64,000 nucleotides of DNA from Gloeomargarita lithophora Alchichica-D10. Lineage in GTDB: Bacteria; Cyanobacteriota; Cyanobacteriia; Gloeomargaritales; Gloeomargaritaceae. The notes beneath the pieces are model-generated. The model saw nothing but the letters and a program-made list of their open reading frames with translations, made no database searches and had not been told where the DNA came from. A program made the translations under genes and the position numbers. The stretch lies in NCBI RefSeq assembly GCF_001870225.1, contig NZ_CP017675.1, positions 1,251,796 to 1,315,795 on the forward strand, read 5' to 3'. Shown piece after piece: positions 27,400 to 48,315 of this stretch. How positions within the stretch are numbered: the first letter of the stretch is position 1; each line of letters begins with the position of its first letter.

Positions 27400-27525
27400 T
27401 ATAGCTAAACACGCAAAAGTTGACATGATATAGGTCACAGGGGCACCGCCCCCGTCCCTGGTTCTCGGTAATACAAGCATTCCAGCGAGATGGCTTTCTG
27501 TGGGTGCAAATAGATAGAGGTGTCC
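27400..27525. repeat. Chimeric MITE: family 2 left end, family 3 right end
   Basis: Starts TATAGCTAAACACGC like family 2, passes through the shared core (GTCACAGGGGCACCGCCCCC, CCTGGTTCTCGGTAATAC), and ends ATAGATAGAGGTGTCC like family 3. It shows directly that two families have exchanged sequence through the core. Confidence 0.75.
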
Positions 27526-44499: not shown

Positions 44500-46239
44500 A
44501 TGTCCAGGTTATTGGTGACGCAGTATCAGGCCGAGGTCGAAAAAGTTATTCGCTACGGGGGGTCGAAAAAAGAGACCAGTATTCGCAATGCGTTTGAGCG
44601 GCTGTTGAATGATTATTGCCAGCCCCGCAATTACCTATTGATCCCTGAATTGGACTATAAAACCCGGTTTAATACGACGGTTTTTCCCGACGGCACTATC
44701 AAAGATGCGATTCGGCTAGAGCATGGCTGGTGGGAAAGCAAGGACGAGTACGACCGTCTGGATGAAGAGATTGAAAAGAAGTTTGAGCAGGGCTACCCGG
44801 ATGAGAATATTTTGTTTGAGGATTCTCAGACAGCGGTGCTAATTCAGCATCGTCAGGAAGTCGCCCGGGTTTCGATGCAGGATGCCGGGGCACTGGATAA
44901 TCTACTGAATTTCTTTGTGGATTATGAACGTCCAGAAGTTAGGGATTTTCGGGCGGCAATTTTCAAATTCAAGGCGGACATTCCCCACATTTTGGTAACT
45001 CTGCGTGACCTACTTACGCAACAAGAAGCGAGTAATTCCCAGTTTCAGGAACGGCGGCATAGGTTTTTAGCAATGTGTCGCCAATCCATCAACCCAGAAA
45101 TCGCAATTACTGATGTGCATGAAATGCTAATTCAGCACATTCTCACGGAGGATATTTTCACTAACATTTTCCATGAGTCCCAATTTCATCGGGAAAATAA
45201 TATCGCTGGCGAATTGGCAGAGATTATCAACACATTCTTTACGGGAGCGACCCGCAAAAATACATTAAAAAGTATTGAACATTATTATGCAGTAATTCGA
45301 CGTAAATCGGAGAATATCGCCAATCACCACGAAAAGCAAAAGTTTCTCAAGGCGGTGTACGAAAATTTCTACAAAGCCTACAATCCCAATGCGGCGGATC
45401 GCCTGGGCATCGTTTATACCCCCAATGAAATTGTGCGCTTTATGATTGAAAGTGCGGATTATCTGGTGCATGAACATTTTGGTAGATTATTGAGCGATCC
45501 GGGGGTGGAAATTTTAGACCCTTGCACCGGCACAGGAACCTATGTAACGGAACTAATTGAATACATTTCCGCTCATAAATTAGAACATAAATATAAATAT
45601 GAAATTCATTGTAATGAGTTGGCGATTCTACCCTACTATATTGCCAATTTGAATATTGAATTTACTTATCAACAAAAGATGGGTAAATATGAAGAATTTA
45701 AGAGCATTTGTTTGGTAGATAGCCTGGATCATTGCAGTGCAAAAGGACACCAGTTCGATCTTTTTGCTATGACTGTGCAGAATACAGCTCGGATTCAACA
45801 GCAAAATGAAAAAACGATTTCTGTAATTATTGGCAACCCGCCCTACAATGCTCATCAGGAAAATTTTAACCAACGTAATGCCAACCGCCCTTATCAAATG
45901 ATTGATAAAGCCATCAAAGAAACGTATATCAAAGAAGGAACTGCCCAAAATCAGATTGTTGTTTACGATATGTACACGCGCTTTTTGCGGTGGGCATCGG
46001 ATAGGTTAGGGCAAAATGGCTTAATTGCATTCATTATCAATCGGTCATTTATTGATGCTAAAACCTTTGATGGATTTCGTAAATGTATCGAAAGTGAATT
46101 TGATTATGCCTATATTGTTGATACACAATCGGATGTACGCAATAATCCTAAAATATCTGGCACAAAAAATAATGTATTTGGGATTCAAACTGGTATTGCC
46201 GTGATATTCTTAGTACGAAAGCGTAAGGAGAAAAAGTGA
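44500..46239 (+). CDS. Type IIG restriction-modification enzyme, nuclease-methyltransferase half
   Basis: 579 aa. A PD-(D/E)xK-like nuclease pattern (PDG at 63-65, D69, then WESK with E79 and K81) starts the protein. The N6-adenine methylase follows: TPNEIVRFM (308-316), motif I DPCTGTGTY (340-348), motif IV NPPY (446-449). It ends FLVRKRKEKK, where full-length homologues would run on into the specificity domain. Here the stop TGA overlaps the start of an antitoxin gene, and the specificity part is a separate gene after vapBC. ATG 44500 follows a GGGGG ribosome site; a TTG at 44470 is in frame. AT-rich, unlike its neighbours. Confidence 0.85.
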   Translation: MSRLLVTQYQAEVEKVIRYGGSKKETSIRNAFERLLNDYCQPRNYLLIPELDYKTRFNTTVFPDGTIKDAIRLEHGWWESKDEYDRLDEEIEKKFEQGYPDENILFEDSQTAVLIQHRQEVARVSMQDAGALDNLLNFFVDYERPEVRDFRAAIFKFKADIPHILVTLRDLLTQQEASNSQFQERRHRFLAMCRQSINPEIAITDVHEMLIQHILTEDIFTNIFHESQFHRENNIAGELAEIINTFFTGATRKNTLKSIEHYYAVIRRKSENIANHHEKQKFLKAVYENFYKAYNPNAADRLGIVYTPNEIVRFMIESADYLVHEHFGRLLSDPGVEILDPCTGTGTYVTELIEYISAHKLEHKYKYEIHCNELAILPYYIANLNIEFTYQQKMGKYEEFKSICLVDSLDHCSAKGHQFDLFAMTVQNTARIQQQNEKTISVIIGNPPYNAHQENFNQRNANRPYQMIDKAIKETYIKEGTAQNQIVVYDMYTRFLRWASDRLGQNGLIAFIINRSFIDAKTFDGFRKCIESEFDYAYIVDTQSDVRNNPKISGTKNNVFGIQTGIAVIFLVRKRKEKK

Positions 46240-46460
46240 TGACAACAGATACCGAGATTTTACAAACGATTACGCAAATGCCGGAGTCTCTAAAACAGGA
46301 AGTTTTACACTATGCCAAGTATTTGATTGAAAACTATACAGAATCTAAAAATGGGGAGAAAGAACCAAGAAAGAAACGTCGAGCGGGTAGCTTGAAAGGG
46401 AAAATTTGGATGGCGGATGATTTTGATGCGCCTCTCGAAGATTTGAAGGACTATATGTGA
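46239..46460 (+). CDS. vapB: DUF2281 antitoxin within the R-M operon
   Basis: A 73-aa protein (MTTDTEILQTITQMPESLKQ EVLHYAKYL...) ending in a charged tail with KRRAGSLKGKIWMADDFDAP, the arrangement of DUF2281-type antitoxins partnered with PIN toxins. ATG 46239 shares its A with the methylase stop (TGATG). Its TGA shares a base with the vapC start in the same way. Confidence 0.85.
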   Translation: MTTDTEILQTITQMPESLKQEVLHYAKYLIENYTESKNGEKEPRKKRRAGSLKGKIWMADDFDAPLEDLKDYM

Positions 46461-46837
46461 TGTTGTTAGATACTCATACTTTATTGTGGTTTTTGAATGA
46501 TGATCCAAAATTACCCTCAGCCGTCAGGGAAATGATTGAAAGCGGTGATGAGATTGTAGTGAGCATTATTTCACTTTGGGAAATTGCAATAAAGTTTTCT
46601 ATTAAGAAATTAGAACTGCAATTTGATTTTCAGGAACTACCGAATTTATTAGATGAACTCGAAGTACGAGTGCTAACGCTTTCTTTTGAAGATATAAATA
46701 GCTATATTAGATTACCGCTTCACCACCGCGATCCATTTGATCGCATTTTGATTGCTCAGGCGATTAACCATTCTTTCGCAATCGTCAGCGCTGATGCTGT
46801 ATTTGATGCTTATCCAATTCAGCGGGTGTGGGCATGA
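46460..46837 (+). CDS. vapC: PIN-domain toxin VapC within the R-M operon
   Basis: 125 aa. LLDTHTLLWFL, SLWEIAIK, HHRDPFDRILIAQA and VSADAVFDAY are the four acidic PIN blocks, in the subfamily that pairs with DUF2281 antitoxins. ATG 46460 is one-base coupled to the antitoxin. The TGA stop overlaps the ATG of the specificity half (ATGA), so all four genes are translationally coupled. Confidence 0.88.
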   Translation: MLLDTHTLLWFLNDDPKLPSAVREMIESGDEIVVSIISLWEIAIKFSIKKLELQFDFQELPNLLDELEVRVLTLSFEDINSYIRLPLHHRDPFDRILIAQAINHSFAIVSADAVFDAYPIQRVWA

Positions 46838-48255
46838 GTACAGCAAAAATTTTCTACTTTACATTGCAAGATGAACAGACCAAAGAAGAAAAACTTACTT
46901 GGTTTGCACGCACTCGCTTTGAGGAGATTCCCTTTCAACACATCACGCCAGATAAAAAGGCAAATTGGATCAATCTAACGGATAATGATTTTGATAGTTT
47001 GTTGCCTTTGATTGATAAGGACGTAAAAGCAGGAAAATCTCAGGAGGCAGTGTTTCAGCTTTTTTCAGCAGGCATTAAAACTCAACGAGATGAATGGGTT
47101 TATGATTTTTCTAAAGAAGTTTTAATGGAGCGAATGAAGTATTTTGTGGAAGTGTATCAAGAACGGTTAGAGAAAGGGATAAATCGAGACTTAAATACTG
47201 ATATAAAGTGGGACAGAGAGCTTGAGAAATATCTAATTCGCAAAGTGAAAAAAGATTTTGAAGAAAATAAAATTGTCAGAAGTTTGTACAGACCTTTTGT
47301 GAAAATGTTTTTCTATTTTGATAGGCATTTTAACGGTATGCCTTATCAGTGGTATAGCATTCACCCTGATTGTTCTGAGTCCCAGATACCTCAAAATTTA
47401 GTGATTGGTTTTGTTTCAGGATCAAGGTTGAATTTTTCTGCTATCGCTACGGAAACAATTGCCAACTTGAGCGTTTATTCTCTAGACCCGATACAATGTC
47501 TCCCCCTCTATCGTTACGACAAAAATGGCAACCGCATTGACAACATTACCGATTGGGCGTTGGAGCAGTTTTGCAATTACTACCGATCCCCCTCAATCCC
47601 CCTTGAAAAGGGGGAAGAAGAATCAGAACTCGCCTTGAAAAAAGGAGAAGAAGAATCAAAACTCGCCTTTCTCAAGCGGGAACATGAATCCGAACCCCCC
47701 TTTCTTAAGGGGGGCAGGGGGGATCAAATTACCAAACTCGACATTTTTTACTACACTTATGCCGTTCTCCACCATCCTGCTTATCGCAGTAAGTATAAAA
47801 TCAATCTCAAACGGGAATTTCCTCGCCTACCTTTTTATCCTAATTTTTATCAATGGGTCGTTTGGGGTAAAACTTTGATGGACTTGCACTTGAACTTTGA
47901 AACTATTGAACCCTACGGTTTGGAACGGTTTGATATGGCTAGTAAAACTAATCCCAAAACGAAACTTAAGGCAGATAAAACTGCGGGTGTCATTACCCTA
48001 GATGAAAATACGCAACTCCAGGGGGTTCCTGCCCTGGCGTGGGAATACAAACTCGGCAATCGCTCTGCTTTAGAATGGATTCTCGATCAATATAAGGAGA
48101 AAACACCCAAAGACCCAACGATTGCCAAACTTTTTAATACTTATAAATTTGCTGATTATAAAGAATACGTTATTGATCTATTGCAACGGGTTTGCACCGT
48201 GAGTACGCAGACAATGGCGATTATTCAACAAATGCCCCCTACTGCACACCTCTAA
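46834..48255 (+). CDS. Type IIG restriction-modification enzyme, specificity half
   Basis: 473 aa from ATG 46834 (MSTAKIFYFTLQDEQTKEEK), matching the region after the methylase in fused type IIG enzymes and containing the target-recognition part (VRSLYRPFVKMFFYFDRHFN, KLDIFYYTYAVLHHPAYR). Residues about 252-297 are an in-frame insertion made of short repeats (EKGEEESELALKKGEEES..., PPFLKGGRGD). The last codons (HL and TAA) fall in a MITE family 3 end, so the natural C-terminus may be lost. With the first half the total is about 1050 aa, the usual size of a fused enzyme. Confidence 0.8.
   Translation: MSTAKIFYFTLQDEQTKEEKLTWFARTRFEEIPFQHITPDKKANWINLTDNDFDSLLPLIDKDVKAGKSQEAVFQLFSAGIKTQRDEWVYDFSKEVLMERMKYFVEVYQERLEKGINRDLNTDIKWDRELEKYLIRKVKKDFEENKIVRSLYRPFVKMFFYFDRHFNGMPYQWYSIHPDCSESQIPQNLVIGFVSGSRLNFSAIATETIANLSVYSLDPIQCLPLYRYDKNGNRIDNITDWALEQFCNYYRSPSIPLEKGEEESELALKKGEEESKLAFLKREHESEPPFLKGGRGDQITKLDIFYYTYAVLHHPAYRSKYKINLKREFPRLPFYPNFYQWVVWGKTLMDLHLNFETIEPYGLERFDMASKTNPKTKLKADKTAGVITLDENTQLQGVPALAWEYKLGNRSALEWILDQYKEKTPKDPTIAKLFNTYKFADYKEYVIDLLQRVCTVSTQTMAIIQQMPPTAHL
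47587..47724 (+). repeat. In-frame palindromic repeat cluster within a coding region
   Basis: Several CCCCCTTnAnAAGGGGG-like units (e.g. CCCCCTTGAAAAGGGGG and CCCCCCTTTCTTAAGGGGGG) with spacers, common in cyanobacterial intergenic DNA, here translated without a stop. Confidence 0.75.
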
Positions 48256-48315
48256 AAATAGGTCGCCGGGGCACCACCCCCGTCCCTGGTTCTCGGTAAT
48301 ACCTATATTCTATAA
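48245..48315. repeat. MITE family 3 copy after the R-M operon
   Basis: ACACCTCTAAAAATAGGTCG, CCGGGGCACCACCCCCGTCC, TGGTTCTCGGTAATACC. Its start supplies the stop codon of the specificity gene. Confidence 0.7.

Follow-up and report, generated by a model that had tools for sequence, protein, structure and literature searches.

The window, a stretch of 64,000 nucleotides of the Gloeomargarita lithophora Alchichica-D10 chromosome (NZ_CP017675.1, positions 1,251,796 to 1,315,795), harbors a four-cistron operon in the order RM, vapB, vapC and S. Successive genes overlap by 1 nt (RM/vapB, TGATG), 1 nt (vapB/vapC, GTGATG) and 4 nt (vapC/S, ATGA). The following features were found, in window coordinates:

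44500..46239, + strand: RM subunit (nuclease, ISP coupler, N6-adenine methylase), ATG start, 579 aa, ending in ...FLVRKRKEKK*
within 44500..46239, + strand: RM motifs, nuclease PDGTIKDAIRLEHGWWESK, methylase LDPCTGTGTY and NPPY
46225..46230, + strand: AAGGAG ribosome-binding site for vapB, read from the sequence, inside the last RM codons
46239..46460, + strand: VapB-type antitoxin (DUF2281), 73 aa (NCBIfam TA_VapB, 100 bits)
46445..46450, + strand: GAAGGA, likely ribosome-binding site for vapC, read from the sequence
46460..46837, + strand: VapC-type PIN-domain toxin, 125 aa, catalytic acidic residues present (Pfam, VapC comparison)
46834..46837, + strand: ATGA overlap of the vapC stop and the S start, read from the sequence; S lacks a good Shine-Dalgarno of its own
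46834..48255, + strand: S subunit (target recognition and C-terminal domain Type_ISP_C), 473 aa, starting MSTAKIFYFTLQDEQ
47585..47735, + strand: repeat-like in-frame insert of ~45 aa, between the target recognition domain (TRD) and the C-terminal domain of S

A ribosome-binding site for vapB similar to that in the end of RM was found in most relatives. Pfam and NCBIfam detected ISP_coupler, N6_Mtase and Eco57I in the first half, DUF2281 and PIN in the middle pair, and Type_ISP_C in the S half (E = 1.7e-90), while PADLOC assigned each half as part of a Type IIG enzyme-methyltransferase. The middle pair is arranged as in VapBC modules, the antitoxin gene lying directly 5' of a PIN toxin with conserved acidic residues. 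A scan for internal promoters found no more candidates in the operon than in shuffled sequences.

By sequence, the closest solved structure is DrdV, with 1029 aa (PDB 7lo5). The first half aligned in phmmer with DrdV residues 1-580 and the second with residues 588-1026; the halves are thus adjoining and jointly complete. The initial annotation had described four coupled genes in clean reading frames and a split enzyme of about 1050 aa; its coordinates and gene arrangement hold with small corrections, the ORFs and their overlaps bear out the coupling, and the two halves span DrdV from one end to the other with no part lost. All domains of a DrdV-like Type IIG/ISP enzyme are present (nuclease, coupler, N6 methylase and Type_ISP_C specificity domain), and the nuclease PDG...ESK, methylase NPPY and PIN catalytic residues are intact. 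The single polypeptide of DrdV-like enzymes is not found here, since two ORFs carry these domains with vapBC between them. Among pairs of vapBC-split homologues, the mean pN/pS values were 0.087/0.67 for RM, with synonymous sites near saturation, and 0.21/0.66 for S. Such few non-synonymous differences against near-saturated synonymous ones indicate that selection maintains both halves. For the S half alone, AlphaFold2 returned a low-confidence model (mean pLDDT 52). As judged from these sequences, RM and S likely form a working two-subunit enzyme, in which RM would carry the nuclease, coupler and N6-adenine methylase and S would recognise the target. By analogy with known systems, the two subunits most likely associate into one enzyme. 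Precedents are the RM and S subunits of Type IIB enzymes (PMC11997821) and the M and S subunits of Type I enzymes (PMC3510504); fusion of M and S of EcoKI gave a functional Type I enzyme (PMC3510504).

The order RM/vapB/vapC/S was found in at least 10 other genomes, and this recurrence rules out chance or misread ORFs. Deduplication, with duplicates of the window, L037, L116, L117, L043 and L045 removed by hand, left 37 distinct split loci from three Type ISP/IIG-like subfamilies, all broken at one methylase|specificity boundary. The stretch from ...FLVK to CKIFY... spans about ten residues of uninterrupted chain in fused enzymes (for example ...GVAIMFLVKKQNSDFNNCQIFYIRRPDF...). In split enzymes, RM ends just past FLVR/FLVK and S starts with M(S)xAKIFYF. 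The RM tree of DrdV-like enzymes places the cyanobacterial splits, L117 excepted, in one clade (27 rows, SH-aLRT 98), which also holds nine fused members and thus points to repeated splitting, or to re-fusion and recombination. The specificity part recombines separately from the RM half. Two further subfamilies, with RM halves about 40% and 30% identical, have members split at the identical boundary. Outside Cyanobacteria, the generality of the pattern is supported by a few loci. Insertions within either half away from the junction appear, by eye, transposase-like or repeat-derived.

Recognisable toxin-antitoxin (TA) genes occupy the junction in 30 of the 37 split loci. VapBC is found in the window, L036, L039, L040, L041, L048, L050, L058, L116, L181, L187 and L140, and DUF4258 with an MqsA-like zinc finger in L038, L043, L045, L080 and L095. 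HicBA, RelBE, ParD, DUF433-DUF5615 and DUF6883-DUF4926 are also present, some of the DUF5615 and DUF433 genes (L183, L184, L190-L197) having been assigned by reading and tblastn among loci and not by per-protein Pfam. The junction of L118 carries a small protein and an HNH nuclease, and no TA was recognised in L037, L044, L188, L117, L083 and L098. The initial annotation had proposed vapBC as the cause of the split, naming homologues separated without any TA as evidence to the contrary. Such homologues are these six loci, and the same split occurs with DUF4258-MqsA, HicBA, RelBE and others; vapBC is therefore not specifically the cause, and a split tied exclusively to vapBC was ruled out by the survey. 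Most junction TA insertions overlap tightly with both RM and S, with ATGA at the toxin/S boundary in most vapBC cases. Two other arrangements were observed. In L197 (3694-5244, reverse-oriented), a HicA-like toxin and the S subunit are fused in frame in one 516-aa ORF, and in L129 (3390-5010, reverse complement) the RM end is tandemly duplicated with ParD-like and HicAB genes, apparently through multi-step TA accumulation.

TA genes are much rarer around fused homologues, lying within 1 kb downstream in 7/66 and upstream in 2/97, although the TA queries used for the 7/66 came from the junctions, so that flanking genes of other TA families are under-counted. Junction and flanks differ (Fisher p = 6e-13, computed over related, non-independent loci). 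The low downstream figure agrees with a Pfam scan of 114 ORFs lying downstream of the fused loci, which detected PIN in six and PIN_3, DUF2281 and HicB in two each. However, 8 of 33 split loci have TA genes just downstream, and general clustering in defence islands may therefore explain some of the pattern.

The TA modules have also turned over. Genomes with RM halves 85-88% identical have junction VapCs only about 40-66% identical to that of the window. In the VapC tree, free-standing VapCs lie interspersed with the junction copies, the nearest relative of the window copy being a free-standing VapC (69%, L150), and well-supported branches force at least six changes. Holding the junction VapCs together was rejected (AU p = 6e-5), which rules out single vertical inheritance of vapBC. 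These multiple VapC origins, with the many TA families, show that a single site has repeatedly acquired TAs and exchanged them. L038, L043 and L045, where DUF4258-MqsA and an orphan VapB precede S and VapC is absent, look like replacements at a halfway stage.

The boundary between methylase and specificity genes attracts TAs in Type I loci as well. Synechocystis pSYSG (NC_005231) has the order hsdM, DUF433, DUF5615 (PIN-like) and hsdS with a 4-nt toxin/S overlap, a locus described in PMC4963859 only within a defence island. About nine of 20 sampled cyanobacterial hsdM loci (L230-L249) have TA-like genes between M and S (PIN, MNT/HEPN, HicBA and DUF6883-DUF4926, some named by eye). This extends the pattern beyond DrdV-like enzymes and strengthens its generality.

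The operon was probably acquired, since its G+C content is 36-46% against 52.7% for the window, and the RM is missing from a genome of the same genus. There is no clean empty site in the same-genus genome G085, where purB is present but hisH does not adjoin it; plasmid searches returned only relatives below 60% identity. There is a 35-bp interspersed repeat (GGTCGCCGGGGCACCACCCCCGTCCCTGGTTCTCG) directly 3' of S (48261-48295), with a second copy at 27433-27467 and further copies in G085 (L179). The insert in the window S gene (47585-47735) has a repeat-like composition, SPSIPLEKG...PPFLKGGRGD, and is missing in most homologues aligned. Other homologues have far longer in-frame inserts in the same TRD/C-terminal loop, with repeat peptides on either side. 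These inserts include a DUF559-like (Vsr-type) domain recognised by eye (L037 7772-9826, L118 5901-7802, L187 3276-5072 and L188) and a REP-associated-transposase-like protein (L051 4063-7851).

These results suggest a role for the TA pair, which may help to retain the defence enzyme or act as its back-up. We consider it probable that the locus is an RM and S operon, divided where methylase and specificity domains meet, and that it carries an exchangeable TA cassette which stabilises or backs up defence. TA modules of many families have entered the junction or replaced one another there, and start/stop overlaps tie most of them into the operon. The RM operon may be weakly addictive by itself because nuclease and methylase share one subunit, and a TA with an active toxin could then stabilise it. 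When phage or stress halts synthesis, VapB would decay and growth arrest would follow as a back-up layer. Failed translation had been put forward as a trigger. However, vapB lies 5' of vapC and has a ribosome-binding site of its own, so a loss of translation would halt synthesis of both proteins; VapC is more plausibly released by ordinary decay of the antitoxin once the operon is lost or the host is shut off.

The TA may instead be useless to the enzyme, the junction being a permissive interdomain linker in a TA-rich defence neighbourhood where selfish modules land and from which their excision would harm the operon. We regard this as unlikely, though it accords with the many unrelated families, their frequent turnover and leftovers, the TA genes downstream of S and the similar behavior of Type I M-S junctions. 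TAs are commoner at the junction than in the flanks, most overlap tightly with RM and S, and toxin catalytic residues are kept, all of which argue against it; selection on the TA alone would, however, likewise retain these features. A stronger form of the preferred reading, in which an interchangeable TA between RM and S converts loss or inhibition of the operon into arrest and TA capture itself drives fission, is doubtful; were it true, any TA family would suffice as the cassette. It is improbable that the cassette serves mainly as a regulatory linker, acting through translational coupling on the RM:S ratio or on timing, or suppressing recombination like tvrAT. The S start lacks a strong Shine-Dalgarno and appears dependent on vapC translation, as the frequent ATGA overlaps would allow, and in tvrAT, the one tested analogue, shuffling was suppressed and no addiction was found (PMC6265443); yet unrelated TA families would all have to keep this role, TA-less splits dispense with it, and the recombinase and S repeats are absent at the window locus. 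Decay of either half, which had been named as contrary evidence, is present in L095 (frameshift), L080 (RM broken by an IS-like ORF) and L086 (S half mostly deleted), but that the two window ORFs are remnants of an RM gene broken by insertion is very improbable, given that they are intact with all motifs, that both halves are under purifying selection among split homologues with near-saturated synonymous sites, and that the split form endures in many genera.

The three subfamilies and the Type I loci give the pattern a wider reach than was first seen at this locus. Together they offer a natural repeated experiment on why TA modules cluster with defence genes, with one defined position, many TA families, loci that have a TA and loci that lack one, and both fused and split controls. 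They also suggest that DrdV/ISP enzymes may function in two-chain form, a property that would help in exchanging specificity subunits.

Our searches of the open-access literature did not turn up any account of a TA module within a split Type ISP/IIG gene. PMC4963859 lists pairs of DUF2281 and PIN among the TA systems of Synechocystis, but not the window pair. DrdV (Type IIG/IIL, PDB 7lo5/7lvv) has the same domains in the same order and aligns full length over both halves, but it is one 1029-aa chain, whereas here there are two chains with a TA pair between their genes. The Type ISP enzymes LlaBIII and LlaGI (PDB 4xqk, 5ffj) have related coupler, methylase and Type_ISP_C domains; they are single chains with a helicase-translocase, which the locus lacks. 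BsaXI and other Type IIB enzymes likewise combine an RM fusion subunit with a separate S subunit, although their methylase/S architecture differs and the available part of the source describes no TA between the genes (PMC11997821). In PrrC- and PARIS-like guards the toxin is activated by RM inhibition, while VapC here has a cognate VapB, and nothing in the sequence indicates that it senses the RM enzyme. The pneumococcal tvr locus also carries a TA-homologous pair within an RM specificity region, but is Type I with shuffling hsdS cassettes and a recombinase (PMC6265443), and the tvrAT result is a warning against presuming addiction here. The pSYSG locus is Type I, in which M and S are normally separate genes, unlike in DrdV-like enzymes. 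The window locus is best read as a variant of these M-TA-S Type I loci.
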